The notes under the pieces were generated by a model. That model had not been told where the DNA came from and searched no databases. It was given only the letters and a program-made list of their open reading frames with translations. Positions 3,900 to 20,191 of a stretch of 22,836 bases of DNA are shown here, in pieces (the first letter of the stretch is position 1; each line of letters starts with the position of its first letter). The stretch is from positions 1-22,836 of the IMG/VR virus record IMGVR_UViG_3300032213_000395; one strand, written 5' to 3'. The DNA comes from a virus. The position numbers and the translations under genes were made by a program.

Positions 3900-6377
3900 A
3901 TGGCGCGACTGTTTAATGAGCAGGAGTTTGAAGATTCGTTCAATGAGAACGATCTGTTGGGCATCATCAATGAGGGAGTCACCCCAACGCCTGTACCTGC
4001 TCCAGCCCCTGCCCCGTTTAACTTCAAAGATTACATCTATCAGGGCGGGGCAAATGACACTGTCGCCACCCAGCGGGGACTTGACTACATCCGCGAGCAA
4101 GGGCTTACTCCGCAGCAAGGTGTTGACCTGTTTAACACCAATCTCGGCACCAACTTCACGTTGGACGATTACTACCGCGCCACGGGTACACAGCCTCCCG
4201 TCGCTGCTCCTGCGTCAATTGTTTCGCCCGCCGCTGCGCCCGTTGCGCCGACCCCGGCTCCTGAGCCTGTTGTTACTCCTCCTGCCACGGTCTACGACCA
4301 ACTCCAGACAGCGGGTCTGACAGAAGGGCCAGCAGGACCGCTTGTCCCTACGCCTGCGACCACAACAACACCTGCTCCAGCGCCTACCGCAGCGGCGGCA
4401 AGAACAATCGATACAAGCAACCCCGCAAATCTAATTACCAATATTCTTGGGGCAGACCCCAGTGCAGCACAGCGTCTGGTTGCATCCCGCACACAAGCGT
4501 TTGATCTCGGAGAAGGCAGCACGTTTAGCGACCCGGGCGAGCAATTTGGTGGGTTTACGGTTCGCGCGACGCCAAACACTTATGACGCATCTGGCGTTGC
4601 GACTGGAACAGGGTTTACTGCTTCAAGATCTCAGACCGGTCCAGATGGCAAACCTATTGAGACCACATTAAATTACGACGTAAACGGAAATCTTCAAAAC
4701 TCAGTAGCGCGGATATTCACGGGCTCCGACAGCGGGTATGAAATTACTTATGACCCGTCCGGTAAAATTATTGGGCAGTCTCAGTTTGATTACTCTGAGT
4801 CTTGGAAAAATGTTGCGCTTCCCATAGCCAACATGGCATTGATGGCGCTGACTGGCCCCGGGAGCAATCTGGCGTCTAGTTTGACCGGCGCTCTTGCCCC
4901 CACACTCGGGAAAGGCATTGCGTCTCAAATCGCAGCCAATGCCATCATTGGTGCTGGGCGCGGCGCGGTGCTGGGTGGATTGTCAGGGCAAGATGTTGGG
5001 TCTGCGGCCCTCAGAGGTGGTATTGCTTCTGGCGCAGGGACGGCCTTGGGCGCTCTGGGCGAAACCGCTGGCGCGGGGGCTAGCAAATTGATTGGCCCCT
5101 ACTTGCCCGAGGGCGGTGTCGGAGACTTCCTCCAATCTCTTTCTGGGAACGTAGCGCAAGGGATCGTCCGGGACGTTGGTGGTTCTTTGATCGGTTCTGC
5201 GCTGACCGGGCGCGATTTTGACCTCAGCAATGCACTCACAAGCGGGGCGCTTTCCGGCCTGACTCGGACCGTGTTTGAAGAGGCCAAGGGCAATCCCATG
5301 ATCAAAGCCCTGCCGCGTGAACTCCAAAGCACGGCGCTTGCTGCGTTGTCTGCTCAACTGCGTGGACGAGATCCCGGACCTGCGGCGCTCAATGCGTTGA
5401 TTGGCTCAATTGCACGTGGGGTTGGGCGACAGGCCAAAACTACTACGACCGGAGGCGGAGGCGAAGGAGATTTTGGTACTCAGGGTTTCTGGGAAGGCTG
5501 GGACAGTTCAGGCGGCGGTTTAGACGAGGGTATATCTACGACCGATACTGATCGAGTATCTGTAACCGGCACCCGAATGCCTTGGGAAGACGACACGACT
5601 GATATTGTTGGTCTGTTCACTACCACTCAGGCGGCGACTACAACGCTGCCAGCGGGCCAAACTGTTCCCGTCATTGGCACCAAAGACAGTAAGTCAACCG
5701 GCGATACGTTCCTTGATGATTTAATCAAGGAGTCAGTAACCTTAACCGATAAAACAACGCAGAGTGTCACGGTCACAGGCAAGCCCATAACAACCACCGA
5801 GGCTCCTCCTGAAGGCACCACAACCACCACGACAACTCAAAAGGTCACGGTTACGGGCGAACCCATCACGACGACTGAAGCACCCGAAGAGACCACAACC
5901 ACAACCACAACCACAACCACAACCACAACCACAACGCTCAAACCGGGCGAGACAACAACCACGAGCACAACACAGCGGGTAGAAGTCGAAGGCACGAGGA
6001 TTACTACCCTCCCGCCTGATATAGATTCGACTACGACCCGTGCGCCGACAACAACGGCTGCGCCTACGACGACTGCTCGCCCGACGACTACAGCAGCGCC
6101 CACGACCACAACAACGACCACAACAACGACTACGACCACGGCGCGTCCGATGGTGAGTGCGGGCGCGGTCCAACAGCCCATGAGCCAGATTCAGGATCTG
6201 GGCACGTTCAAGTCTGTGTTCTACGAGAAGATGCAGCGGGAAGAGCAACAGAAGGAACTTGCTCGTCAGTTGCAAGAGCAGGAAAATGCCGATCCATACG
6301 AGCGGCTGATGGCACTCGCCGAAAAGAATCCCAACATGGCGGTTGATGAACTGATGCGAATTATTGAAGGAGCCTGA
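3900..6377 (+). CDS. Large glycine-zipper and threonine-rich virion protein
   Basis: I do not recognise a named family in this 825-residue protein. The N-terminus is acidic and followed by Pro/Ala-rich linkers. Residues about 300-400 are Gly/Ala-rich and hydrophobic with small-residue spacing (IIGAGRGAVLGGLSG, GIASGAGTALGALG), typical of membrane-inserting glycine zippers. Residues 553-700 contain four short beta-like repeats, VSVTGTRM, VTVTGKPI, VTVTGEPI and VEVEGTRI (starting at 553, 623, 649 and 694), separated by Thr-rich linkers including a pure Thr run near 665-678. The C-terminus (from about 775) is a charged helix rich in Gln and Glu. The surrounding genes make an internal virion or ejection protein the best guess. 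The Thr-rich region could instead be a surface stalk. The patch at about 4390-4800 is visibly more AT-rich than its surroundings. Confidence 0.6.
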   Translation: MARLFNEQEFEDSFNENDLLGIINEGVTPTPVPAPAPAPFNFKDYIYQGGANDTVATQRGLDYIREQGLTPQQGVDLFNTNLGTNFTLDDYYRATGTQPPVAAPASIVSPAAAPVAPTPAPEPVVTPPATVYDQLQTAGLTEGPAGPLVPTPATTTTPAPAPTAAAARTIDTSNPANLITNILGADPSAAQRLVASRTQAFDLGEGSTFSDPGEQFGGFTVRATPNTYDASGVATGTGFTASRSQTGPDGKPIETTLNYDVNGNLQNSVARIFTGSDSGYEITYDPSGKIIGQSQFDYSESWKNVALPIANMALMALTGPGSNLASSLTGALAPTLGKGIASQIAANAIIGAGRGAVLGGLSGQDVGSAALRGGIASGAGTALGALGETAGAGASKLIGPYLPEGGVGDFLQSLSGNVAQGIVRDVGGSLIGSALTGRDFDLSNALTSGALSGLTRTVFEEAKGNPMIKALPRELQSTALAALSAQLRGRDPGPAALNALIGSIARGVGRQAKTTTTGGGGEGDFGTQGFWEGWDSSGGGLDEGISTTDTDRVSVTGTRMPWEDDTTDIVGLFTTTQAATTTLPAGQTVPVIGTKDSKSTGDTFLDDLIKESVTLTDKTTQSVTVTGKPITTTEAPPEGTTTTTTTQKVTVTGEPITTTEAPEETTTTTTTTTTTTTTTLKPGETTTTSTTQRVEVEGTRITTLPPDIDSTTTRAPTTTAAPTTTARPTTTAAPTTTTTTTTTTTTTARPMVSAGAVQQPMSQIQDLGTFKSVFYEKMQREEQQKELARQLQEQENADPYERLMALAEKNPNMAVDELMRIIEGA
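5893..5934 (+). repeat. Perfect hexanucleotide tandem repeat (CCACAA)x7
   Basis: Seven uninterrupted copies of CCACAA lie in frame and encode a pure threonine run in the 825-aa protein. Less perfect Thr-codon repeats (ACAACC, ACGACC, ACTACG) continue on both sides, roughly 5815-6145. Because the unit is six bases, gain or loss of copies would change the linker by two threonines without breaking the frame. Confidence 0.95.
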
Positions 6378-6378
6378 A

Positions 6379-7263
6379 ATGAGTAGCCCAGACTACGGAT
6401 TCGGCGGGTTTGATCTTGGCGGGTATTCAGATCTTTATGATGTTGACTACCTGAATGAACTCGACAAATACGGTGTTGACATCCCCTACGGTTCTCTCAA
6501 TCAGAACGTAGACCCGACCAAGACTGTCGTAAATTCGGATAAGAGCACCTACTTTTACGACAAAAATGGCAACTTCCTTGGCGGAGTTGGGTCTGGTGGG
6601 CAGGTCATCACCGATGGGTTTCTGAATCAAGCCGGTGCCGCGCTTAAGAATCTGTTTGGTGGCACGGGGGATCTCGGGAAACTGGGACAACTGGGCGCGT
6701 TCGGTGGGCTGGCTGCTCTTGCGCGCAAATCGTCGTTCTTCAATCCGCCTCCACCCAAGGTTGGTTTCCAAGGCACGATCCCGCAGTACACCTACGAGCG
6801 CCAACAAACTCCGCTGGCTCAACAGCGCCCTGCGGGGTATCGCCCTGGCCAAGGCGGCATCACATATTTCGCGCCCAGTACGTTTACCCGTATGGCCCCT
6901 CCTGCTACTCCAACACAAGACCAAACAGTCCCAAAGGAGCCAACGCAGGAAGTCTCAGCAGCCGCAGGAGGTGTGATGCCCGGCGGTATCGCCATGCTCG
7001 CCAAAGGCAGGTATTTGAAGGGCAACGGTGACGGCGTGTCTGACTCCATCCCCGCCCGTTTCGCGGGCTCGGGTCAAGAGGCGCGTCTTGCCGATGGTGA
7101 GTTTGTGGTTCCTGCCCGTGTCGTGTCTGAACTGGGTAATGGTTCATCCGATGCTGGGGCTCGTAAACTCTATGCGATGCTTGATCGTGTGGAGGCACGC
7201 GCCAAAAAAGCCAAGCGCGGCAAGCCGTCCGGCGCTGATCGTGAACTCAAGCGCCTCGCATAA
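6379..7263 (+). CDS. Phage internal/structural protein with GDGxSDxIPA...LADGEFVVPA module
   Basis: This protein has 294 residues. The N-terminal half is rich in Gly, Tyr and Asp and has a hydrophobic Gly/Leu stretch (LGKLGQLGAFGGLAALA). The middle is a Pro/Gln-rich linker. Residues about 215-270 form the part I recognise: GNGDGVSDSIPARFAG, then ARLADGEFVVPARVVSELGN and SSDAGARKLYAMLDRV. This module recurs in structural or internal proteins of many tailed phages, and its biochemical role is unknown to me. The frame is open from a TTG at 6364, but ATG at 6379 has a strong AAGGAG six bases upstream and begins one base after the upstream stop, so I chose ATG. The C-terminus is strongly basic (KKAKRGKPS), which could favour nucleic-acid contact. 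Confidence 0.7.
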   Translation: MSSPDYGFGGFDLGGYSDLYDVDYLNELDKYGVDIPYGSLNQNVDPTKTVVNSDKSTYFYDKNGNFLGGVGSGGQVITDGFLNQAGAALKNLFGGTGDLGKLGQLGAFGGLAALARKSSFFNPPPPKVGFQGTIPQYTYERQQTPLAQQRPAGYRPGQGGITYFAPSTFTRMAPPATPTQDQTVPKEPTQEVSAAAGGVMPGGIAMLAKGRYLKGNGDGVSDSIPARFAGSGQEARLADGEFVVPARVVSELGNGSSDAGARKLYAMLDRVEARAKKAKRGKPSGADRELKRLA

Positions 7264-7272
7264 GGATTAAAT

Positions 7273-8421
7273 ATGTCTAACGGACTGACCACCACTGGGG
7301 TTACAAACCCGTTCACAACTGCTGCGTCTGGGTTTTCTTCTCCTACTATGGGGAAGATCGCCGGGCAAGAACAGACCATCGCGAGTTACGCCGCTCCGTA
7401 CGTCACGGAGATGCTCGGCAAAACCCAGGCGCTGACCAATCAGCCTTATCAAACTTATCAGGGTCCGCTGACCGCAGGTGCTTCACCGCTTCAGCAACAG
7501 GCGTTTCAAGGCGTAGGTTCCCTCGCACCGTCTCAGGGTCTTGGTACGGCGCAGGGTATTGCCGGTGGTGTTGCGACTGCCGCAGGTGGTCTTGGGTATG
7601 GCCCTTCGCAGTTCCAGAATCAGTTTGCTGCCCCCGGTGCTTATGACGCTGGCAAGTTTGAAGGCGGCATCTTCGGGACTCAGCAAGCGCAGCAGTACAT
7701 GAACCCGTACTTGCAGCAGGCGCTCAACCCGGCGCTTGACGAGGCCCGGCGTCAGGCTGAGATGTCTCGCGTTCAGCAAGCAGGCAGGCTCACTAGGGCT
7801 GGTGCGTTTGGTGGTGGCCGTCAAGCCATCATGGAGTCGGAGTTAAACCGTAACATGATGCAGGCCCAGAACAAGATGCTGGGCGAGGGGTACGCGACCG
7901 CCTATGACAAGGCGATGGCGCAGTACAACCAAGACATGGCTCGTGCGATGCAAGCCCAGCAGATGGGTGAGCAGTCTCGCCAGTTTGGGGCCGGTCAAGG
8001 CATGCAGGCCGCGCAGTTGGCCGCGCAGTACGGCACGGAAGCCCAGCGTCAGGCTGAACAGTCTCGTCAGTACGGCGCTCAGTATGGGCTCCAGGGTCTA
8101 GCGCAACAACTCCAGGCGGCTCAGGCGCTCGGCTCACTCGGTACGGCGTACGGTGCGGAACAACGTGCCAACCTCGCCCAACAGATTGCCGCAGGCGCAC
8201 AGCAGAGGGACATTGAGCAGCAAGGCATCGCAGCGGATCTGGCTGAGTTTGAGAAGCAACGTCAGTTCCCGTACCAGCAGTTGCAGTTCCAGCAGGCCAT
8301 GATGCAGAACCTGCCGATCTCTGCGGCCAACTACACGTATATGGAAGACAGTCCGTTTGCTCAGACACTTAAGGGCGCGGGTGGTTTGATGGGTCTTTAC
8401 GAGCGCCTGTTCGGGGGCTAA
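7273..8421 (+). CDS. Gln/Ala-rich helical internal virion (ejection-like) protein
   Basis: This 382-residue protein contains almost no Cys or Trp and is extremely rich in Gln, Ala and Gly. A Gly-rich N-terminal third is followed by RLTRAGAFGGGRQA at about 176-189. From about 190 to 350 it is a long, probably helical Gln/Ala region with an approximate internal repeat (MGEQSRQFGAGQGMQAA against AEQSRQYGAQYGLQGLA). It ends with a recognisable block, QQGIAADLAEFEKQR and FPYQQLQFQQAMMQNLP, and a short Gly/Leu tail. Composition and placement between other internal-type proteins suggest a core or DNA-ejection protein, comparable in style to podovirus ejection proteins. Homology to a named one is not claimed. 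The ribosome-binding site TAAGGA overlaps the upstream stop codon, six bases before ATG. Confidence 0.65.
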   Translation: MSNGLTTTGVTNPFTTAASGFSSPTMGKIAGQEQTIASYAAPYVTEMLGKTQALTNQPYQTYQGPLTAGASPLQQQAFQGVGSLAPSQGLGTAQGIAGGVATAAGGLGYGPSQFQNQFAAPGAYDAGKFEGGIFGTQQAQQYMNPYLQQALNPALDEARRQAEMSRVQQAGRLTRAGAFGGGRQAIMESELNRNMMQAQNKMLGEGYATAYDKAMAQYNQDMARAMQAQQMGEQSRQFGAGQGMQAAQLAAQYGTEAQRQAEQSRQYGAQYGLQGLAQQLQAAQALGSLGTAYGAEQRANLAQQIAAGAQQRDIEQQGIAADLAEFEKQRQFPYQQLQFQQAMMQNLPISAANYTYMEDSPFAQTLKGAGGLMGLYERLFGG

Positions 8422-8424
8422 AAC

Positions 8425-9999
8425 ATGCAACAAACAGCAATCAATCCTGCCCTGGCGGCTGCAATGACGCTTGAAAGCGCCGCGCAAATGGGGGAGTTTC
8501 GTCCTACCACGCCAGACGGACAGCCTACGGTCGCCGCGCAGTTGATGCAAAGAGCGATGCCTCCTTCCGTGCCGCAGGTTGCACAGCAGGCTGGCATTGC
8601 AGGACAGATTCAAGCCATGCGCATGAAGCAAGCGCAAGAGGCTTTGATGAATCAAGCGATGGCACAACGCCCTCAAGGCGGTGTCGAGGCGCTCAACCCG
8701 CAAGTGGGCAACTTCGCCGAGGGCGGGATTGTGGGGTACTCGGGGAAAGATGAATCGGATGTAAAAGATAAATCATTCATAGAACGATTCCCGGAAGGTT
8801 CAGGTATCCGCAAAATATCGGAATGGATCGCTAAGGGTCGTCCGTCTTTAGATCGACCGCTTTTGGACATGAGTGGTCCGTCTTTAGATACGGGTTATCG
8901 AAGAGGGCAAAAACCTGAATTGAGTTACGAGGATCAAGAACGAATTCTAGAAACACTCAGGGAAACCGGGCCTATGATGGACATACCTGAAGTTGCTGTT
9001 CCCGCTTCCGCGCCTCCAGCGCGGCCGTCTGGCCAAGGTGTGCCTATTCCTCGTGTGGGGGTCGGCTCTTTGCCTGCTGCCGCTGAAATGGGACCGCCTG
9101 TTCCCACCGGGTCCGAACGGCAATTTGAACAAGTCCTTGCTGCATACGAACGCTCTCGTCCTCGGGAAGTGACGCCTGAGCAGGGCTATGAAGCCGCCAT
9201 GCAGGCCAACGCTCAACAACGTCGATTCTTGCAGGCTATGGGCGTTGATCCTGACATGCTTGAGAAGCAAGCCAAGGAAGTTGAGCGCCGTGGCACCGAG
9301 CGTGGCAGTTACTACGAGTCGCAGGCTCAGGCTGCACGTGATAAAGCCAAGAGGGATTCACTCAAGAACTTCTTGCTTGGCGCTTCGGGACGCGGCTTCG
9401 GTGACGTGATGGCCAGTAGCGAGCGTGCGGCGAGCGGCGCAGATGCTGCTGCCGAAGCGCAAGCGCAACGCTTCATGGAACTCAAACTCCAGGCGCAGGA
9501 CGCCGCTGTCAAGGAACGCATGCTGATCAACCGGTTGCAGTTTGAGACGGCCACGGGTCAGTTCGACAAGGCGATGAAGACCAAGCAGGAGATTGAGAAC
9601 AACCGCCAGAAGTTTGAAACTGCTGGTGTCGAGTTGCGGCTTGCCCGCACCAAGGAACTTGGTGCAGAAGAGCGTCAGCGCCTTGATCGTGATATGGAGG
9701 CACGGAGGCTTGAGGCAACCCAGCGCGGGCAGGATCTCCAATATCTTGCGGCAGTACAACGTGTAACTAACCCCGGTGACAAACAACGTCTGTCTGAATT
9801 GAGGGCGCTTCAGACGTCCATCACCGATCAGATGAAGAACTACAGTCTGCCGAAGGAACGCAGGGCTGAACTGGACGCACAACTCAAAGCCGTAAATGCC
9901 CAGATTGCGTCGATGGCCGGACTTCCTACTACTGGTGGTGCTACTGGCGCAACCAACGTAGACTTGAGTCAATGGGGTGAAGTCAAAACGCCACGGTAA
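8425..9999 (+). CDS. Coiled-coil internal virion protein
   Basis: This 524-residue protein has three visible parts. Residues 1-90 are helical and Gln/Ala/Met-rich. A short NFAEGGIVGYSG motif follows near residues 95-106, a pattern I recall from phage internal and tail-associated proteins. Residues about 107-180 are encoded by an AT-richer stretch with a small repeat, then a Pro-rich linker. From about 230 to 500 there is long charged helix with coiled-coil character (QAQAARDKAKRDSLKNFLLG, EERQRLDRDMEARRLEATQR), interrupted by a Gly-rich turn (LLGASGRGFGDVMASS). No enzymatic motif is seen. The start is 3 bases after the upstream stop. A role in the internal core or as an ejected protein is inferred from the neighbours; a short tape-measure-like role is an alternative. 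Confidence 0.6.
   Translation: MQQTAINPALAAAMTLESAAQMGEFRPTTPDGQPTVAAQLMQRAMPPSVPQVAQQAGIAGQIQAMRMKQAQEALMNQAMAQRPQGGVEALNPQVGNFAEGGIVGYSGKDESDVKDKSFIERFPEGSGIRKISEWIAKGRPSLDRPLLDMSGPSLDTGYRRGQKPELSYEDQERILETLRETGPMMDIPEVAVPASAPPARPSGQGVPIPRVGVGSLPAAAEMGPPVPTGSERQFEQVLAAYERSRPREVTPEQGYEAAMQANAQQRRFLQAMGVDPDMLEKQAKEVERRGTERGSYYESQAQAARDKAKRDSLKNFLLGASGRGFGDVMASSERAASGADAAAEAQAQRFMELKLQAQDAAVKERMLINRLQFETATGQFDKAMKTKQEIENNRQKFETAGVELRLARTKELGAEERQRLDRDMEARRLEATQRGQDLQYLAAVQRVTNPGDKQRLSELRALQTSITDQMKNYSLPKERRAELDAQLKAVNAQIASMAGLPTTGGATGATNVDLSQWGEVKTPR
8840..8889 (+). repeat. 14-bp direct repeat, 36-bp spacing
   Basis: GTCCGTCTTTAGAT occurs at 8840-8853 and again at 8876-8889. The 36-base period equals 12 codons and encodes a repeated PSLD (RPSLDRPLLDMS, GPSLDTGYRRGQ). 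It lies in an AT-richer patch, about 8745-8960, of the 524-aa protein gene and looks like a small in-frame duplication. Confidence 0.85.
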
Positions 10000-10004
10000 T
10001 CAAA

Positions 10005-13000
10005 ATGCCTGTTTACGAGATCAAAGCGCCTGACGGCAAGACCTACAGTATTGAGGGACCGGCGGGCGCGACGCGCGAACAGGTCATATCCGCGATCCTC
10101 GCAAAAAAGCCAGAGGCGGGTATTGCTCCAACTCCCGAGGGCGGGTTCGTTCCTGCTTTTAAGGCTGGGGTCGAGTCTCTCAAAGGCGAGGCTGCGCTCA
10201 CCGCAGGCAAACTTGGCCTGATGGGTCTGTCGGAGGCCGAGAAGTACCGCGCCGAGCGCGAGGAAGAAGCCAAGCGCATCTTCAAGCCCACCGAAAAAGG
10301 ATGGACTGAGGCACCGGGTACCAAGATCAAAGAACTCTTGGGCGGCTCACTGCCATACATGGGCGCTCCGATTGCTGCTGGTCTGGGCGCGTTGGCGCTT
10401 CCTGTGGCGCTACCCAAAGCCGCTATCGGTGCGGGTCTGGCAGGTCTTGCTTCTGCCACGCAATTCACAGGCTCGAACCTCGCACGGCAACTGGAAGAAG
10501 CGCAGAAGCGCGGCGAGATTGGCGGTCTGGGGGCAACTGATCTTGGCACAGCCGCAGCCGCTGCGGTGCCGCAGGCGGCACTCGATGTGTTTGCCTTGAA
10601 GGGTATCCCGCTTGTTCGTAACCTGTTCAAGTCTGTTGGTAAAGAATTAACTGAGGCCGAAGCCAAAGCCATCGTCGAGCAGGGTATCCGCAAGACCGCT
10701 GCCGATTACGCAGTGACCACCGGCAAGGTCGCTGGGCGCGAAGGCACCACCGAGGCTGGTCAGCAATTCTTTGAACGTCTGCAAGCCGGATTGAACATCG
10801 CGGACAAGGACGCACGCGAAGAATATCTGGAAAGTTTTGTTGGTGGCGCAGTCCTTGGCGGCGTGGTTTCTCCTGCGGGCCGGTTTGTTGAGCGCATCGG
10901 TGAGCGCGGTCGAGCCGAAGACGTGCTTCTTGTTGAAGACATCAAGCGTGAAGCCGCTCGGGCGCAAGAGGAGTCTGCCAAGAAGGCCAAAGAAGAAGAA
11001 CTCAAGAAGCAGCGTCTGTCGAAGATCTCCGACGAGAAACTCAAGGAGATGCAGGACAAAGTCGCTGAGCGCGAAACCAAGATCGCTGAGATGGAGGCCC
11101 GTGCGGAAAGAGGTGAACTCACAGGACCAGAGAAGGGCCAACTTGGTAGCCTGAGAAAAAATGTAGCCATCCAGAAAGAAAAGATCGATGCCGCGCTTGC
11201 CGCGAGAACTCCTGAAGGAGCGCCAGATGTTGGACAAACTGTCACCGAACCAAGTGGAGAAGGCTTTGAGATACTTGAAAAGCCCCCTGCCGTTGGAGGT
11301 GCCGAAGGAGTTGCAGGAACTCAGCCAAGTGGAGTGGTACCTACTGGCACGGATGCTGGACCGGCTGTTGGAGGAGAAGGCGCAGCACCCAGTGCAGTAG
11401 TTGGGGCCACCGCTCCCGCCCCCGCTCCCGCTCCCGCCCCCGCTCCCGCTCCCGCTCCCGCTGCTGACCTTCAGTACAACCCCAATAAATCAGAAGGGTT
11501 ACTGGACGTCAATATCGGCGGCAACCGTTTGCAGTTCAATCAAGAATCGGGTGGTTTTCGCGGCCTGAGTCAATTGGTCGTAAACCCTGGAGGCAATGCG
11601 TCTGCTTTCTACAGCGAGAGTGGCTTCAAAGCAGACCAGAGAAGCGGCAACTTTGGTTCCAAGTCGGTTGATACCGAACTTTCATTCCTGCCGCAGCCTG
11701 TTCGCGCCGCTGTCAAGAATTGGCTTGAATCTCCTACCCGTGACGAGCAAACAGCCCGAGGACAGGAAGTTGCCAGTCAGTTATCTGCGCTGTTAAACCG
11801 TCCTAAAGCAGCCGCTGCTCCTGCCGCCCCCGCTGTCACTGGGCCTACTGGCAACGCCGCCGCTGATCTCGCCGCGCTCAACGATCTGTTGGGTGGGGCC
11901 GATGGACTGCCTTCACGTGGCACTGCCGAGGCTACGCCGAAACAACTGGCTGATATAGCGAAACTCAACGCGTTTGGGAATGCGTACGGCATCCCACGTC
12001 TGCCCGGTGAGTTGAACCAAGCCTACGGTGAGCGGATCAAGCAGGTACTGGAACTCTCGCAGCCTACTCAAGAAGCAGGCAAGTTTAAGTTTCCGGGGGG
12101 TCCAAAGGGTATTGACGAAGAGCAGGCGCGGCTTTTATACGACGAGACCCGAGAAGAATTCAACAAGACCGCCGAGACAGACGCAAAACTGCCCACGTAC
12201 CGTGAACTCACGGACTACGAGCGCCGTCTGTACTTCCAAGGCATTGCGCGAAACGACCAGACTGAGCATGACAAGGCTGCACGCATCCTGTCGGACTTCC
12301 TGCTTGAGAAGCGCGGGGAGACCCGCGCCGTAGGTGCAGCCGACCCAGAGGCGCAAAAGCAGGCCGCGTTTGAGGTCCAGTCTAAAAACATCTACAACCG
12401 TGAACGCGGTGCGGCGGGCTCGAAGACGAGCATCAATTACTCGTTTCCTGCGTGGAACGACCTGTCTGATGCGAGCCGTCAGGCGTTCATGGCGATCAAC
12501 AAGAACAACTCTGCACAAGAGTTGGATCAGGCATTCCGTGCGTTAAAGAACCAAATCCGCAAAGAGAAGGCCGAGTTGCAGTCGCGTGAAGCGGCAACTG
12601 AAGCGGAAGCCAAAGCCAAGGCTGAACAGCGTGTTGCGATTGAGCAGGCTCTCAAGAAAGAAGCCAAAGGCAAGGGGGAGCCGCTGCCTCCCAACATCAT
12701 CGAGGCGCTTCAGAAAGGTGATCTCGATACAGCCCTGCGCTATCTCAGCCTGAACGGTCAAGGTCTCAAGGGACGCAAGTACCGTGGCCCCCAGGGCTTT
12801 TTCCGAGTCCGTGATTCTGTTGCGCGAGAAGTCTTCCGCAATCTCGCAGGAAACCTCCTCACCATTCCTGGCTTCAAGGTCAACTTCGTCTACGACGAGA
12901 ACCTTGGTCCTTTGGCGCTTGGCGAGTACGACGCCAACACCAACACAGTCTACGTCGGTCCTCGTGGGTTGGATGAAGCCACGCTGCTGCACGAGTTGGT

Positions 13001-16000
13001 ACATGCGGCCACGGTCAAGATCATCCACCAATACTTCGTTGACAAATCCAAACTGACGCCGCGAGCGCGAGAGGCTGTTGAGCACATTCAACAGATCGCT
13101 GCGTACGCCAAAAAAGAACTTGGCGCGAAGTATCCCAACGCATTCGATAACCTGTACGAGTTCGTCTCCTATGCGATGACGGACATGGACTTCCAGTTCG
13201 CGCTCGCGCAGATTCAAGTTCCTAGGCTTGAAAAGTTCACCCGTAATGTAAGAGTTGAATTTCCTGAAGGAACCAAGGAAGCCCGCGAGACAAGCGTTGT
13301 TTATGGCGGTCTGGGCAATTCGATCTGGGACTACTTCACCGACACCCTTGCGTATCTCTACAAACTCTTTACTCCGACGAAGACTAAGCAAGCCATCCTG
13401 ATGCCCGTTGATACGGGAAAACTCAAGACCGGTCTGACTGCTGAGTCTGTAAAAGCACTGCGTCAACGCGAGGAAGATCGCAAAAACCGCCTTGCTGCGC
13501 AGCGCCGTGCCAAGAAGCAGGCTGAAGAAGCCGGTGAAGAAGTTGTAGAGGAAGAGGTCGAGGAGGAGGGGGCGGTTCCTCAAGAAGTTGTTGATATCGC
13601 CGAGAGCCGTAAAAAAGAAAAAGAAGCGCGTCTCGAAGACGAAGCGGAAATTGAAATTTTTGGTGATAGTGATATCACGGAGAAAGACGAGCAAGACGCA
13701 GAAATTGCACCAGAGCCTGATGAACTGGTCATTCAGCGTGGGCTGACCAATCTGCGCCGTAGCATCCTGCGCGAGCCGGGCTACAGTGGCAATCTGCTGC
13801 TTGAGTTCTCCGCTGCGTTCAAGGACATCCTCGCCGCACCTGAAGGCGACATCAAGGAACTCGCTGGGAAAGAGCAAGACTTCGGCGCTACGCTCGCATC
13901 ACGCGGCGCAGCCGCAACGGTCACTGCTCCTCCTGCTCCGCAGAAAACTCCCGAAGAAGCCAAGGCTGCGTACGAAAGCCAAGTCAAGATTGAGCCGGGC
14001 GGAGCGCAGCGTACCGTCAGGGCGTTGTTCACCAACAAGGGATACAACTGGCTCGTCGAGCGGTTCCAGAACGACCGCTACATCCTGCGCAAACTCACCA
14101 ATCTGGCAGAGCGGTTCGGCATCCTGAACCGTCTTGGCGACAACATCAACGATGTCTATGGCCAGATCACGCGCTCCACGGGTATCGCTGTGGATTTGTT
14201 TGCCCGACGCGTACAGACACCGTCCGATGCAGTGCACAAGGCTGTGGAAGCCTACGCCAAGGCCGCGAACGTTGACATCAACAAGGCACTTGAACAACTG
14301 CATTTGGTCCTTGAAGCACGTCACGAGCCTGAGCGCCGCACGGTGAAGTTCCTGCGCGAAGTGAAGTTGGACCAGCAAAACGTCAAAGCAATCAAGTTTG
14401 ACGGCAAGGAGTATTCCGCTGCCGGTTTCCGTGAAGAGATCTTCAAGCGGCTGATCAACCCACCCAAGAACCTGACGCCTGATCAGCAGAAGCAACGCGC
14501 CGAGAAGTATCGTGAGTATCTGAACCGCATCGTGTTCCAGACCGATGCGAACGGCAACATCGTCTACGGTGCGGATGGTCTCCCGCAGGTCAACTCTCGG
14601 TTCACTGAGAAGATCCTCGACAAGAAGAACTCCGCCAACAACACCAAGTTGGTGGCCGCGAATGAAAACATTCGCAATGATCGCTACAACGTGATCGCCA
14701 AGCGGTCTCCGAAAGACATCCAAGAGATCAAGCAACTGTTCGACAAGCCTGAACTCAAGGCGCAGATCGATGCCGTCTCCCAGGCTGTCAAGGACGTGCA
14801 CGATGTCACGATTGATCTCAACCGCGAGGCCAACTACTGGTCGCAGCCGGTGCAGAACATCGTGAATTTCTACGGGTTCCAGAACTACGTACCGTTCAAA
14901 GGCAAGCCCGGCACTGCAAAAGCCAACATTGATGACGAGTACAACCTCGACAACAGGCGCATTGGTGGTGAGTTTCAGGAGGGTGAGAACGCTTTCGAGG
15001 GCCGTCTGTCGGAAGCCGACAACCCAATCTTGCAGACTCTGGCCGATGGTGCACGAGCCGCCATGCGCGCGGGCCGCAAGGAATTGACTCTAGCGATCAA
15101 GAATGCCGCCAAGGACAAGATCGTCAACGGCAAGGTGATTAAAACGATCAAGTTTGAGGAACGCTATCTCAACAAGGTTGATAAGAAGGCGCTTGGTGGT
15201 CCCAACAAAATCTTTCACTACAACCCTGATGGCACGATTGACATCATTCAGATCAACGACAAGCAGCAAAGTGAAGCCATCCGTCGCAGTTACAGGGTCT
15301 CGCAGCCCCTGCTCGACTACGCCAACACCGTTACGAGTTTCATTGGCCAGACGCACACACGGTTCAACCCGGCGTTCGCCCCGATGGACTTCGTGCGTAA
15401 CTCGCTGACCAACGCTTTCAACCTCGGTGCAGAACTCGGCCCCCTCAAGGCAGGGCGTTTGCTAACCGCCATTTCTGCGGACGTGGCCAGTGGCGGAATG
15501 TTCCGTACAGGCAACTACATGCGTCTGTATGGCCAGGGCAATTTTGATGAAATCAAGCGTCTGGCCGGGGGCGATAAGCCGTACAACGACCTGACATCTA
15601 GAGAGAAATACTACCGTGATCAGATGGAGTACGTTGAGCAGGGGGGCAAGGTTTCGTACCTTCAAGGCATCGCTGCCAAGGGCGCGCTCGACGGGCTGAT
15701 GAAAGAGATTGGTGAGTCGGGCATCATGACCAAGGGCCGTCAGGTCGCCAAGTTCTTTGATGCGTACAACGAATTGTTTGAAATGTCGAACCGTGTGTCC
15801 ACGTATCGAATGCTCAAGCAGCAGTTCATCACGGATGGCATGAGCGAAGAAGACGCCAAGCGCAAAGCCACCGAGTACACAAAGAACCTCGCCAACTTTG
15901 AACAGGTCGGGCGCTACGGCAAGGAGATGGGCGCACTGTTCATGTTCTTCCGACCTGCGGCCACAGGTGCTGTTCGTGCGATTGAGGCACTGGCCCCCGC

Positions 16001-17138
16001 GTTTGGGTTTAACGAGCGTCTGTTCCGTGCGGAGGCCGCAGCCCGAGGACGTACGCCGGAGCAGATTGAGCGCGCTGTTGCTGATATGAAGCGCCAACAG
16101 ACCAATGCTCGGTACATGGCTGCCGGTATGGTTGGGGTCGGTATCAGTGCGTACATGATTGCTCTGATGATGAGCGGTGATGACGAGCAAGGACGCAACC
16201 GTGTCTCCACAGACGATATGGCGCGGTGGACGCGCTACGCTCGGTTTCCGGTCCCCGGAACGGATAAGTTCTTTCAGATTCCGTGGGGCTTCGGCATGGG
16301 GGCATTCGCTGCGGCGGGGGCGCAACTTGCGTCTTTGACGTCTGGGCGCGTTGAGTTGAAGGACACGTTCTCTAACATCATCGATATTGGGTTCGACTCA
16401 TACGTGCCGCTGCCTTTGTCGCGCATCAGCGCGGTGGACAATATGCCAGCCAAGGTGCTTGACTCGGTCACGCCGTCTGCACTGCGTCCGTTCTTTGAGT
16501 ACGTGATGAACCTCGACGGCCTGGGCCGCGAGATCTACAACAACCGTCAGTCTCGCTATGGTGATGCATACACGGGTGGCGACAACATCCCTGAGATGTA
16601 CAAAGCCGCGACGCGGTGGGCGTTCGACAGCAGCACGGGTGAGTTCGATGTCAGCCCCAACACGCTGTACTTCTTTGCCACCAACTTTGCGGACGGCTTC
16701 GCCAAGATCGCGTCGATGGGATACAACGCGTCGCTGTGGGCAACGGGTCAGAAGGACTTTGAAGCCAAGACAGACTTCCTGCCTATCGGAGCATTCGTCG
16801 GAACGCGCTCAAACGTCGATGCACGAGAATTCTCCAAAGCGGAGGACGAGATCAAGGGCTACCAACGCCAGATCAACAGTCTCAAGACAAGCCGTCCCGA
16901 ACTACTCGATGCCTACATCCAGAAGAATCCAGAGCGGTATTACCTTGTGGAGTTCTACGAGCAGCAGGTCAACGGTGCGTTGCGAGATGTTCGCGCAGCC
17001 GCAAACCGGGTCCGCGCTAACCCAGAACTTACGCCACGCGACCGCAAGATTGAATTGGATGAACTGCGTGATGTCCAGAATTTGATGAAGCAACAATTGC
17101 TAGATACATTCAAGGACATCAAGCGGGGTATCGACTAA
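10005..17138 (+). CDS. Giant polyvalent virion protein with HExxH metallopeptidase motif and LPD38-like C-terminus
   Basis: This 2377-residue protein is the largest in the window. Order seen: (1) residues 1-36, a conserved-looking VYEIKAPDGKTYSIEG leader; (2) Gly/Ala hydrophobic stretches at about 111-163 and 274-295; (3) charged coiled coil at about 305-400; (4) an Ala-Pro linker at 470-485; (5) a small beta-type region at about 488-600; (6) HELVH at 996-1000, with Glu1052 in YEFVSYAM as candidate third zinc ligand, a gluzincin-type arrangement; (7) a Glu/Lys-rich linker near 1160-1195; (8) an LPD38-like region starting near RFNPAFAPMDFVRN (1786), with a hydrophobic helix at about 2035-2057 and RYARFPVPGTDKFFQIPWGF after it; (9) a charged helical C-terminus. 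Such proteins are thought to be packaged and delivered into the host. Size, neighbours and domains fit an ejected multifunctional protein; the protease substrate is unknown. Confidence 0.8.
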   Translation: MPVYEIKAPDGKTYSIEGPAGATREQVISAILAKKPEAGIAPTPEGGFVPAFKAGVESLKGEAALTAGKLGLMGLSEAEKYRAEREEEAKRIFKPTEKGWTEAPGTKIKELLGGSLPYMGAPIAAGLGALALPVALPKAAIGAGLAGLASATQFTGSNLARQLEEAQKRGEIGGLGATDLGTAAAAAVPQAALDVFALKGIPLVRNLFKSVGKELTEAEAKAIVEQGIRKTAADYAVTTGKVAGREGTTEAGQQFFERLQAGLNIADKDAREEYLESFVGGAVLGGVVSPAGRFVERIGERGRAEDVLLVEDIKREAARAQEESAKKAKEEELKKQRLSKISDEKLKEMQDKVAERETKIAEMEARAERGELTGPEKGQLGSLRKNVAIQKEKIDAALAARTPEGAPDVGQTVTEPSGEGFEILEKPPAVGGAEGVAGTQPSGVVPTGTDAGPAVGGEGAAPSAVVGATAPAPAPAPAPAPAPAPAADLQYNPNKSEGLLDVNIGGNRLQFNQESGGFRGLSQLVVNPGGNASAFYSESGFKADQRSGNFGSKSVDTELSFLPQPVRAAVKNWLESPTRDEQTARGQEVASQLSALLNRPKAAAAPAAPAVTGPTGNAAADLAALNDLLGGADGLPSRGTAEATPKQLADIAKLNAFGNAYGIPRLPGELNQAYGERIKQVLELSQPTQEAGKFKFPGGPKGIDEEQARLLYDETREEFNKTAETDAKLPTYRELTDYERRLYFQGIARNDQTEHDKAARILSDFLLEKRGETRAVGAADPEAQKQAAFEVQSKNIYNRERGAAGSKTSINYSFPAWNDLSDASRQAFMAINKNNSAQELDQAFRALKNQIRKEKAELQSREAATEAEAKAKAEQRVAIEQALKKEAKGKGEPLPPNIIEALQKGDLDTALRYLSLNGQGLKGRKYRGPQGFFRVRDSVAREVFRNLAGNLLTIPGFKVNFVYDENLGPLALGEYDANTNTVYVGPRGLDEATLLHELVHAATVKIIHQYFVDKSKLTPRAREAVEHIQQIAAYAKKELGAKYPNAFDNLYEFVSYAMTDMDFQFALAQIQVPRLEKFTRNVRVEFPEGTKEARETSVVYGGLGNSIWDYFTDTLAYLYKLFTPTKTKQAILMPVDTGKLKTGLTAESVKALRQREEDRKNRLAAQRRAKKQAEEAGEEVVEEEVEEEGAVPQEVVDIAESRKKEKEARLEDEAEIEIFGDSDITEKDEQDAEIAPEPDELVIQRGLTNLRRSILREPGYSGNLLLEFSAAFKDILAAPEGDIKELAGKEQDFGATLASRGAAATVTAPPAPQKTPEEAKAAYESQVKIEPGGAQRTVRALFTNKGYNWLVERFQNDRYILRKLTNLAERFGILNRLGDNINDVYGQITRSTGIAVDLFARRVQTPSDAVHKAVEAYAKAANVDINKALEQLHLVLEARHEPERRTVKFLREVKLDQQNVKAIKFDGKEYSAAGFREEIFKRLINPPKNLTPDQQKQRAEKYREYLNRIVFQTDANGNIVYGADGLPQVNSRFTEKILDKKNSANNTKLVAANENIRNDRYNVIAKRSPKDIQEIKQLFDKPELKAQIDAVSQAVKDVHDVTIDLNREANYWSQPVQNIVNFYGFQNYVPFKGKPGTAKANIDDEYNLDNRRIGGEFQEGENAFEGRLSEADNPILQTLADGARAAMRAGRKELTLAIKNAAKDKIVNGKVIKTIKFEERYLNKVDKKALGGPNKIFHYNPDGTIDIIQINDKQQSEAIRRSYRVSQPLLDYANTVTSFIGQTHTRFNPAFAPMDFVRNSLTNAFNLGAELGPLKAGRLLTAISADVASGGMFRTGNYMRLYGQGNFDEIKRLAGGDKPYNDLTSREKYYRDQMEYVEQGGKVSYLQGIAAKGALDGLMKEIGESGIMTKGRQVAKFFDAYNELFEMSNRVSTYRMLKQQFITDGMSEEDAKRKATEYTKNLANFEQVGRYGKEMGALFMFFRPAATGAVRAIEALAPAFGFNERLFRAEAAARGRTPEQIERAVADMKRQQTNARYMAAGMVGVGISAYMIALMMSGDDEQGRNRVSTDDMARWTRYARFPVPGTDKFFQIPWGFGMGAFAAAGAQLASLTSGRVELKDTFSNIIDIGFDSYVPLPLSRISAVDNMPAKVLDSVTPSALRPFFEYVMNLDGLGREIYNNRQSRYGDAYTGGDNIPEMYKAATRWAFDSSTGEFDVSPNTLYFFATNFADGFAKIASMGYNASLWATGQKDFEAKTDFLPIGAFVGTRSNVDAREFSKAEDEIKGYQRQINSLKTSRPELLDAYIQKNPERYYLVEFYEQQVNGALRDVRAAANRVRANPELTPRDRKIELDELRDVQNLMKQQLLDTFKDIKRGID
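11412..11459 (+). repeat. Hexanucleotide Ala-Pro repeat (GCYCCC)x8
   Basis: Eight consecutive GCTCCC or GCCCCC units encode eight Ala-Pro dipeptides (residues 470-485 of the giant protein). This is a stiff extended linker between the coiled-coil N-terminal part and the following domain. Two units carry GCC instead of GCT in a regular pattern (units 2 and 5), suggesting growth by duplication of a three-unit block. Confidence 0.9.
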
Positions 17139-17139
17139 T

Positions 17140-17361
17140 CTAATTGATGCGCCATGTACGGACGCCGAGGACACCGTCCTCGGCTACCGTAAACACTTTG
17201 ACCCTGACACCGCTCTTCTTGGCGGCTGTGTCGATGGTGTACGTCATGTAGGCAGGTTTCATCGTCGGGATAAAGAAACTGTCCCCGATGCTCATGCCGG
17301 AGAAGGGGAACACCCACTCCGGCTCGTCGTACCCCATCTCAAGGCTTTGCTTCTTGCTCAT
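17140..17361 (-). CDS. Small conserved phage protein, function unknown
   Basis: This 73-residue protein has a clear core, FPFSGMSIGDSFFIPT followed by AAKKSGVRVKVFTV and GVLGVRTWRI. I recall similar small proteins, with GDSFF near the start and a terminal GVRxWRx, from phage replication regions, but I cannot name a function. It looks like a compact beta fold, perhaps a nucleic-acid or protein-binding accessory. It is the last gene of the leftward operon: its ATG at 17361 overlaps the 3' end of the primase-helicase by 23 bases. An alternative ATG at 17337, one base after the primase stop, would give 65 residues. Neither start has a good Shine-Dalgarno site, so the start is uncertain. Its 3' end contains a 9-bp hairpin and stops one base from the convergent giant gene. 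Confidence 0.75.
   Translation of the reverse strand: MSKKQSLEMGYDEPEWVFPFSGMSIGDSFFIPTMKPAYMTYTIDTAAKKSGVRVKVFTVAEDGVLGVRTWRIN
17164..17184. terminator. GC-rich hairpin at convergent gene junction, possible bidirectional terminator
   Basis: GCCGAGGAC (17164-17172) and GTCCTCGGC (17176-17184) form a perfect 9-bp stem with a 3-base loop, 26 bases past the stop of the giant + strand gene and inside the 73-aa - strand gene. Neither side has a U-tract, so it is not a textbook intrinsic terminator. It is the only strong structure I see where the two transcription units meet. The paired bases also encode AEDGVLG, so the symmetry could be a by-product of coding. Confidence 0.35.
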
Positions 17362-20191
17362 CGAACAGGTGTGACATGTCCATCGTCAGTTCGTAGGCAT
17401 TGACGTTGGTGGCTCCCAAGGCGTCTTTCCACCCAGTGGCCATCTGTTTGCGGACCTTGTCGATCAAGATCCCCTTCTGCTTGAGGCGATTTTCAAACTG
17501 CCGAACGTCCATGCGGATGTCCCGCAGGTACGCTTTCATCGCCGACGTTGAGATGAAGATTCGGCTGTTGTCCACCTCGGCTCGGATGTGAAGCGCGTTG
17601 CGCGGCTCCATCGTGACCTTGCCATCACGGACCACGAGGCAACTCTGGATGTTCTTGTTGATGAAGTCGCCCACCACATCCTCGCGCCCACTCTCATCGT
17701 CGCGCTTCTTCCCGGCGATCAGGTCGTCGAACTCTGCACCAACCACGCTGAAGATCCGGTCAAGGTCGAACTGCATCAGCCCAAGGGAGTTGGCAATCTC
17801 TCCCCCGACACGGGTGGTGGCGAACATGTTGGACAGGAACCGATACTCCGAGTTGTTCGTGTACCGCTGCGCGACCTTCAGGTACTCCAGATCTGTAAGT
17901 CTCTTGAGTTCCGGTACCCCAATGTTCTGGATAAGTTCTTTTACGTAAATCGGGCCAGCGTGTCCGTAGTTGTATTTCAATGGGTCGATCATCAGTTTGC
18001 CGCGTTCGGCTGTCAGTTCGTACCCTTTGACGCTAGGAATGCGTACCTCTGGCTCCAGTATGCGAACGCCCTGCGCCGAGACATTGGCACGGTACTCTTG
18101 CAACAGGCTCTTCATCGGCTTGTTGGTCGTGATGATGGCGATCAGTTTGGAGTAGAACGACGCCTCGCGCTCCTGGTTGGTGGAGGACATCAAGCGGATC
18201 TTCGGAGCGCCTGAACTGATGTTGTAGATCAGGTGAGACACAAGTTTGGGGTCAAGGTCGCCCTGCTCGTCCAGACCGTACGGCAGGTTCTTGCTCGTGA
18301 TCATCCGTTGGATCAGACCGTTGCCCGTGGCGTCGTAGACCGATAGCGTGTCTGGCTTACCCCAGATGCTGAGTGCGCCGTAGAGTGCGCCCGTCTTCCC
18401 AGTGCCCGGCCCGTCGCTGTAGAGTGACAGCGTTACGCCGTTGACGTTGGTGACCTCCATCAAGGGCGACGCGAATCCACAGAGGATGGCGAACGCATGC
18501 AGTTCGTAGCCAGGGTCGTTGAACATCTGGATGCATCGCTTCCACGTCTCAAAGTCTCCCGCCGTACGGATGTTGCGCACCACGTTCTTGGACAGGGGCG
18601 ATGTCGGGGAGTACCGGACCTCGGAGCGCGTGAACTCCTGTGTGCCAAGCACGAAACTTTCTTGATCCTCGGTCCAACCTTGTTGGACTCTCATCACATC
18701 TGCTCGTTGCGTTTCCACTAGATATGCCGTCCATTTCATGAGGTAACTTGCCAGACGGTTACCCTGCGTCGGTTCAAACACCACACCGTTGGAAGCCAGG
18801 ATGGTCTTGAGTTTTTCTTGAGAGACAACGTCTTTCAGAGGCAGCAAGAACTCCCGCGACTGATCCATCGGCAGATGCAGATGCATCACAAGGCACTCGC
18901 CATCGTAGGAACTGTAGATGCGCTTGGTCGGATACAGGTCGTTGGGTGTGATCAACTCTGCGTCGTCTTGGATCAACTTGCCCTTCTTGTCACGCCGGGG
19001 CGGGGGCATGAAGTAGATGCCGCCGTTCACTCCTCGCTGGTATGGGTTGAGGAAGTCTGGGAAGACGAGAATCTTTTCGGTATTCGACGGCAACCGAACT
19101 GCGCCCGTTTCATTTTCGGGGGCTTGTCCGACTGGGTCAGGCTGTCTGGCAATCTTGATGATGCGCCCGAGTTCAATCGGGCCTGTGATGCGTCCGCGAT
19201 GGGGGCAGTCGATACAACCGTCACCGTTCTCTCTGGAGAAGGCGTCGCATCCGTGTGCCCAGTTTGCTTCTCGCAGGGACTGAGCGGCTTTGCGCTCGGT
19301 TTCGTCATAGGAGTACTTCGGGTATTCCTCAGACATGAGGTGGATGGCTTCCTTGCCATCTCTGCATCGAGCGGCGACGGAGATCCCTGCGTACCACAGA
19401 GGCTCAGGACAAGACTCGGCGTTCTCAATGATGTGTCGAATTTGGGCACAACCGTTCCCTTCTAAACTGAGGTTTACGATCTTGGCGAAGTCATACTCAA
19501 AGTTGCCGTTGCGCTTCTCAAAGATGGCGCGTGTGTCGTCGTCCAGTCCTTTCTCAATGTCGCTGAGCGCAAACTTGGCGTCCAGCGGGATCTGTTCAAG
19601 CGCGGGGGCGAAGATGCTGAAGTCGTGCGTCTCAATCTCGTTGAGGATGAACGATTCAGTCGGGGGGTTGTATCGGTAGTTCTTCGTCCCAGGCACGCGC
19701 ATCAGACGCGCAGAGTCTGCCGGTACGCCCTCGTCGATGATCATGTTGTGGTCCAAGCAGAGTTGCTTGAACCGTGCGGCCCACCTGTCCCACTCAGCCG
19801 CAGGGATCTCCTCGTTGAGAATCCAGTACGCATGGATCCCGCCGCCAGAGTCCACGGCGATTGGCAGTGGCCAACCGACTTCCCCACAGAAACGCTCAAC
19901 GTCGTCAAGCGCCTTGGATTTAGACTCGTAGCGTTTCTCCCCGTGCATCACGTCGAGGTCGAGGAAGAAACTCTTTACGAACGTGCAGAACTCCTGCTTG
20001 CGCCGAAATCCTGAGTACGTGCCTGGGGTGAAGTAAACATTCTTTTTCTCCCCAATAAACCTCTCAGCAAGAGCGAGCGCGTCTCCGACATTGGACGCGA
20101 AGCGTGGAACGATGTTCCCCTCCGTGTCGATGGCAGCGACGCACACATTCCCCTGCGAAGGAAAAATCTTCTCGAAAAATTCTTTGTTCAT
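17339..20191 (-). CDS. Primase-helicase: AEP/PrimPol-type primase fused to DUF927-type helicase
   Basis: This 950-residue protein probably primes and unwinds phage DNA. Archaeo-eukaryotic primase motifs lie in the N-terminal third: FFLDLDV with Asp78 and Asp80 (metal binding), SGGGIHAYW at 115-123 with His120, and DSARLMRVPGTKNYR at 159-173. A PriCT-like helical part follows (about 263-305, WYAGISVAARC and YPKYSYDETE). Next comes a Cys/His cluster (Cys315, Cys326, Cys329, His331) that may bind zinc. The ATPase half has Walker A GPGTGKT at 594-600, a Walker B-like YGLDE at 638-642 and a sensor-like IIATTN-type stretch (IAIITTN, 684-690). This matches DUF927-type primase-helicases of phages and plasmids. 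The ATG at 20191 has only GCGGAA immediately before it, a poor ribosome-binding site. An intrinsic terminator ends about 12 bases upstream. Domain assignment is strong; polymerase activity beyond priming is possible but unproven. Confidence 0.88.
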   Translation of the reverse strand: MNKEFFEKIFPSQGNVCVAAIDTEGNIVPRFASNVGDALALAERFIGEKKNVYFTPGTYSGFRRKQEFCTFVKSFFLDLDVMHGEKRYESKSKALDDVERFCGEVGWPLPIAVDSGGGIHAYWILNEEIPAAEWDRWAARFKQLCLDHNMIIDEGVPADSARLMRVPGTKNYRYNPPTESFILNEIETHDFSIFAPALEQIPLDAKFALSDIEKGLDDDTRAIFEKRNGNFEYDFAKIVNLSLEGNGCAQIRHIIENAESCPEPLWYAGISVAARCRDGKEAIHLMSEEYPKYSYDETERKAAQSLREANWAHGCDAFSRENGDGCIDCPHRGRITGPIELGRIIKIARQPDPVGQAPENETGAVRLPSNTEKILVFPDFLNPYQRGVNGGIYFMPPPRRDKKGKLIQDDAELITPNDLYPTKRIYSSYDGECLVMHLHLPMDQSREFLLPLKDVVSQEKLKTILASNGVVFEPTQGNRLASYLMKWTAYLVETQRADVMRVQQGWTEDQESFVLGTQEFTRSEVRYSPTSPLSKNVVRNIRTAGDFETWKRCIQMFNDPGYELHAFAILCGFASPLMEVTNVNGVTLSLYSDGPGTGKTGALYGALSIWGKPDTLSVYDATGNGLIQRMITSKNLPYGLDEQGDLDPKLVSHLIYNISSGAPKIRLMSSTNQEREASFYSKLIAIITTNKPMKSLLQEYRANVSAQGVRILEPEVRIPSVKGYELTAERGKLMIDPLKYNYGHAGPIYVKELIQNIGVPELKRLTDLEYLKVAQRYTNNSEYRFLSNMFATTRVGGEIANSLGLMQFDLDRIFSVVGAEFDDLIAGKKRDDESGREDVVGDFINKNIQSCLVVRDGKVTMEPRNALHIRAEVDNSRIFISTSAMKAYLRDIRMDVRQFENRLKQKGILIDKVRKQMATGWKDALGATNVNAYELTMDMSHLFDEQEAKP

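Follow-up and report, generated by a model that had tools for sequence, protein, structure and literature searches.

Whether the giant protein encoded in this stretch of phage DNA carries a working protease, and if so when and upon what such a protease would act, is the question that this locus raises. The giant gene lies within the window (the whole stretch of DNA analysed here, 22,836 nucleotides) downstream of a podovirus-like late region in which ORFs and Pfam/PHROG matches identify a lysozyme, virion structural genes and a DNA-ejection-protein-like gene, while beyond it a primase/helicase and other genes lie on the opposite strand. This phage group is represented solely by metagenomic sequence, and it is the gene order and the homologues that suggest the product to be a virion protein which is ejected.

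7273..8421, + strand: DNA-ejection-protein-like gene, upstream of the giant gene (phrog_4287, E 5.6e-6)
10005..17138, + strand: gene for the putative giant ejection-type (polyvalent) protein, 2377 aa (ORF; DNA-ejection-protein gene upstream; homologous giants at the same position in other contigs)
10332..10904, + strand: N-terminal region (residues 110-300) that includes hydrophobic stretches, candidate for the membrane part (hydropathy only)
12687..13379, + strand: predicted zincin-like (gluzincin-type) metallopeptidase domain, residues about 895-1125 (alignments A1/A2, AlphaFold2, profile matches)
13380..13754, + strand: linker, residues 1126-1250, between peptidase and C-terminal module, highly charged and poorly conserved (conservation profile, composition)
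16221..16751, + strand: LPD38 domain, residues 2073-2249 (Pfam PF18857, E 2.4e-13)

Organisation of the giant protein

The protein has the architecture of polyvalent proteins, being giant and multidomain with MPTase and LPD domains. A first-pass annotation, made from the sequence alone, had described part of it as membrane-active and here hydropathy is the basis of the claim, with hydrophobic stretches present at residues 123-141, 180-198 and 2038-2056. The peptidase domain is flanked on both sides by long, variable, disordered-looking linkers (about 330-890 and 1126-1250). An insert of roughly 110 residues at about 488-600 (about 11466-11804) is carried by few relatives, the gap fraction reaching 0.98, and in two related loci (L033 and L155) the giant gene is divided between two ORFs with the break near the peptidase, reflecting a frameshift or an assembly error.

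The C-terminal module (about 1251-2377) is conserved and mostly helical (alignments A3/A4; model pLDDT 75) and contains the LPD38 domain listed above, in line with the LPD38-like region that had been claimed for the giant. Comparison of this module with the PDB gave no profile match and no useful fold match, and a prophage/host search of species genomes with it returned no match.

A zinc site and its conservation

The active site of the proposed peptidase consists of two short elements.

12990..13004, + strand: HELVH, residues 996-1000, predicted zinc ligands His996 and His1000 with general base Glu997 (motif, conservation)
13158..13160, + strand: Glu1052, predicted third zinc ligand, on the second helix (no substitution in A1 or A2; present in 67/67 relatives gathered by a different module)

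HELVH is the sole HExxH in the 2377-aa protein, which contains 11 His in its 2377 residues and for which 0.004 such motifs are expected from composition. Both the motif and the candidate third ligand had been assigned in the first-pass annotation and both are found in the ORF where it put them, Glu1052 falling 52 residues downstream of HELVH within YEFVSYAM (1051-1058). The helix entry that it had read ahead of HELVH is not seen, NTVYV being a predicted beta-strand and the HExxH helix beginning at about residue 991.

With the peptidase domain alone as query no close relative was found in IMG/VR, and among isolate phages tblastn picked up Schitoviridae virion RNA polymerases, a giant from a Vibrio phage and crAss-like phages, all weakly; every match inspected had its HExxH in register. 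One Schitoviridae virion RNA polymerase, from a Vibrio phage (L029), has two HExxH motifs, at giant-ORF residues 2203 and 2440, and possibly two copies of the peptidase. In alignment A1 (15 rows) the fully invariant columns are exactly H, E, H and E1052, however the rows had been picked as holding HExxH and so Glu1052 alone represents an independent test in that alignment. For this reason relatives were then gathered by their C-terminal module and searched with a profile masked at the four catalytic columns. The peptidase domain was present in 94/94 complete giants of at least 1500 aa bearing the C-terminal module of the window protein, a set that was not dereplicated. Among 67 distinct relatives, which are phylogenetically non-independent, Glu1052 was found in every one (67/67) and His996, Glu997 and His1000 in 66/66, the one further row being truncated at HExxH; the conservation of the three HELVH residues on which the first-pass annotation had made its reading depend thus holds. 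Four divergent relatives missed by the masked profile carry HEVSH, HETMH or HEVGH and in three of the four the downstream EF helix is also visible. Alignment A2 (53 rows) retains invariant H, E, H, A and E at a mean column identity of 18%.

Predicted fold and remote homology

AlphaFold2, with an input of 53 sequences comprising the window and IMG/VR rows only, gave a model of the peptidase domain with a pLDDT of 82.6 and pTM of 0.79, rising to a pLDDT of about 95 around the active site. Its topology is zincin-like, with strands, the HExxH helix (991-1012), a long helix and the Glu1052 helix (1050-1059), such that the predicted ligands sit on two confident helices, the metal geometry being judged from secondary structure, model confidence and conservation. 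The peptidase profile matched solved structures in the PDB, both of N4 and of internal ejection proteins from further podoviruses: an internal virion protein (9sfn_G, E 2e-36), the N4 virion RNA polymerase (vRNAP) at residues 2095-2383 (E 7e-19), the tetrameric ejection protein of PhiM1 (8vb2, E 2e-13) and a gp10 (23sg, E 1.5e-9). Foldseek matches of the model among predicted viral proteins were virion RNA polymerases, internal virion proteins and LPD proteins, but against the PDB there was nothing significant, the weak matches including lethal factor, selecase and M1 peptidases and the best of zincin type being anthrax lethal factor (E 0.13, prob 0.82). The gluzincin-type call is supported by conservation, by fold prediction and by profile matches to solved virion proteins, with motif, third ligand, conservation, predicted fold and homology being what the present analysis shows.

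Scans of the whole giant with Pfam, PHROG and NCBIfam missed the peptidase domain, and the Pfam MPTase-PolyVal model (PF18818) gave no match to the window domain and reached one of 15 relatives at E 0.063. No match to a single-subunit RNA polymerase domain was found in the window giant. A match to phrog_2206 (virion RNA polymerase; E 2.3e-12) is confined to profile positions 2056-2214, and in 53/53 aligned relatives this family matches the peptidase domain alone. Giants that share only this domain and are RNAP-free can therefore be mislabelled as virion RNA polymerases.

A nested gene within the N-terminal linker

Over residues about 400-468 of the giant protein, codon position 3 shows a conservation of 0.59, reaching 0.67 in 30-residue windows and exceeding that of positions 1 and 2, as against 0.322 +/- 0.037 for position 3 elsewhere in the giant gene. 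This third-position conservation is explained by an ORF in the +1 frame.

11215..11220, + strand: Shine-Dalgarno AAGGAG, 6 nt before the nested ATG (sequence)
11227..11400, + strand: overlapping gene for 57 aa, nested in frame +1 of the giant gene, MLDKLSPNQVEKALRYLKSPLPLEVPKELQELSQVEWYLLARMLDRLLEEKAQHPVQ (codon-position test, 121 loci, starts/SD, own-sequence search)

Homologues of the nested protein were found in 121 of the loci examined, in none of them as a stand-alone gene, and all those with the giant ORF around them are in its +1 frame (118/118). An SD-like match of at least 4 nt is present in 85 of 90 distinct relatives, and the stop at the conserved end may be TAA, TAG or TGA. Elsewhere in these giant genes the +1 frame is open in just 7.8% of 58-codon windows. 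Read in the nested frame, the sequences average 43% pairwise identity, vs 25% for the giant's own residues over the same stretch. When IMG/VR loci were fetched by the nested protein alone, a large ORF enclosed it in the +1 frame in 79/80, the remaining copy lying at a contig end. Giants whose C-terminal module is of another kind also carry the nested gene, as do three with no detected peptidase; the gene was not found in Schitoviridae vRNAPs, and its product has no confident match in PHROG, Pfam, NCBIfam, the PDB or isolate phages.

We therefore regard the giant gene as very probably a double-coding locus, in which the +1 frame, through internal initiation, specifies a helical 57-aa protein that is conserved and belongs to a family not yet described. 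Internal initiation is the simplest reading of its expression, with programmed frameshifting as a possible alternative. The nested protein may be a partner of the giant protein, as a chaperone, packaging or regulatory factor, and if real the gene would encode a small conserved phage protein that has so far escaped recognition in a large group of uncultivated phages. Two other explanations for the conserved linker pattern (residues about 404-465) were rejected: a cleavage or docking site, as the conserved codon position is position 3 and belongs to the nested gene, and an antisense or other-frame overlap, as in 118/118 it is the +1 frame that is open and conserved.

Comparison of window positions 4782-18846 with a relative (L003) shows patchwork divergence inside the giant gene. 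The structural genes share 82-94% DNA identity, DNA similarity then falls below detection over 8739-11193 and 11400-14046, an island of 75% falls exactly at the nested gene, and identity is again 79% over the C-terminal module and primase.

Proposed role of the peptidase

On balance we consider it fairly probable that the giant is packaged, ejected and lodged in the cell envelope, and that, once inside a new cell, its gluzincin-type peptidase cleaves a target protein, in trans more likely than in cis. Residues about 895-1125 would form a zincin-fold zinc metallopeptidase in which His996, His1000 and Glu1052 bind zinc and Glu997 activates water. Its packaging, ejection, activity, timing and substrate we infer in the following way: the giant protein would be packaged and then ejected with or ahead of the DNA, its N-terminal part would lodge in the envelope and the peptidase, tethered between long flexible linkers, would cut its target in the newly entered cell, where a host protein or another ejected protein appears likelier as target than the giant itself. 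The domain is most likely active, given the residues retained, and it most likely acts after ejection. A function soon after entry had been suggested in the first-pass annotation and fits the literature on relatives, with its self-maturation component being the less supported part.

Such self-processing after ejection, in which the domain would cut its own linkers (about 330-890 or 1126-1250) and release the C-terminal module from the part held in the membrane, we consider less likely, though still of substantial probability. The variable, disordered-looking character of the flanking linkers is in keeping with it, and Iyer et al. 2017 favour autoprocessing as an explanation for the peptidases of polyvalent proteins, with the processing of P1 DdrB as precedent (PMC5512222). 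However the homologous N4 vRNAP showed no evidence of degradation as purified and was modelled as anchored by its linker (PMC12633501), and in the linkers of the giant no conserved motif resembling a cleavage site was found, their sole conserved pattern being explained by the nested gene. As the linkers show no conserved site and the N4 homologue is undegraded, we favour a trans substrate after ejection, a preference drawn mainly from negative evidence.

Maturation in the producing cell or capsid, with the domain cleaving itself or head proteins before or during packaging, is an improbable explanation. For P1 DdrB cleavage precedes packaging (cited in PMC5512222), but N4 vRNAP is packaged unprocessed even though its peptidase region is required for packaging (PMC5512222). 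This requirement would equally suit a structural or docking domain in which the metal site is kept and the protease function unused, and no peptidase activity is reported in the cited literature; this too we hold to be improbable, for Glu997, the general base, which metal binding does not require, does not vary between families whose column identity is about 18%, and this argues for catalysis rather than mere metal binding. That the domain degrades peptidoglycan, as the endolysin/exotransglycosidase-like label published for the matching part of PhiM1's tetrameric ejection protein would suggest (gp48 residues 268-528, PMC11440229), is very hard to credit, given that the peptidase profile aligns with gp48 376-517 (E 2e-13), where HEAAH and the Glu helix are both retained, and that no lytic transglycosylase or lysozyme family match was found in the window giant with Pfam, PHROG or NCBIfam, in agreement with the absence of a lytic transglycosylase motif noted in the first-pass annotation.

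The preferred reading is therefore of an ejected peptidase acting in trans. The invariance of the four catalytic residues in a large RNAP-free family suggests that catalysis itself is under selection, and this family offers a smaller system in which to find the peptidase substrate.

Comparison with known systems

Zincin domains of ejected phage proteins have been predicted since 2017 and one is visible in the N4 vRNAP structure. According to Iyer et al. 2017, zincin-like MPTases are the commonest domain of polyvalent proteins, one is placed at aa 2130-2448 of N4 vRNAP, LPD38 is listed as phage-type and the roles proposed are host targeting or autoprocessing, either within the head or once injected (PMC5512222). 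The phage-type polyvalent MPTases set out there share with the window protein an HExxH with a downstream helix Glu, a giant multidomain form and LPD38; the phage group of the window is not described in the part of the paper used here and the Pfam MPTase-PolyVal model misses its clade. Since that study and the N4 structure, a 2025 preprint in which HExxH is noted in C1 (PMC12633501), already describe such domains, the window domain belongs to a known class.

DarB-like giants of Stx-converting and Burkholderia phages have a C-terminal module related to that of the window (21-27% identity), and differ in that some of them are annotated with transglycosylase, helicase and methylase parts. The 1263-aa PhiM1 ejection protein (gp48, PDB 8vb2), from a Pectobacterium phage, carries a homologous peptidase domain, and as its residues 268-528 match the zincin profile the "exotransglycosidase-like" domain is probably a protease of the metallopeptidase type, contradicting its label. 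The C1 region of N4 vRNAP gp50 (PDB 9pnr and others) is homologous by profile with its HELVHA and EF motifs kept, and the two proteins have the same layout of N-terminal module, low-complexity linker, peptidase and large helical C-terminal module. Unlike N4 vRNAP, the window giant has no detected RNA polymerase domain and its C-terminal module is of LPD38 type, and what is added here to the known class is this RNAP-free LPD38 family, with a catalytic site that is invariant in relatives chosen without reference to it.
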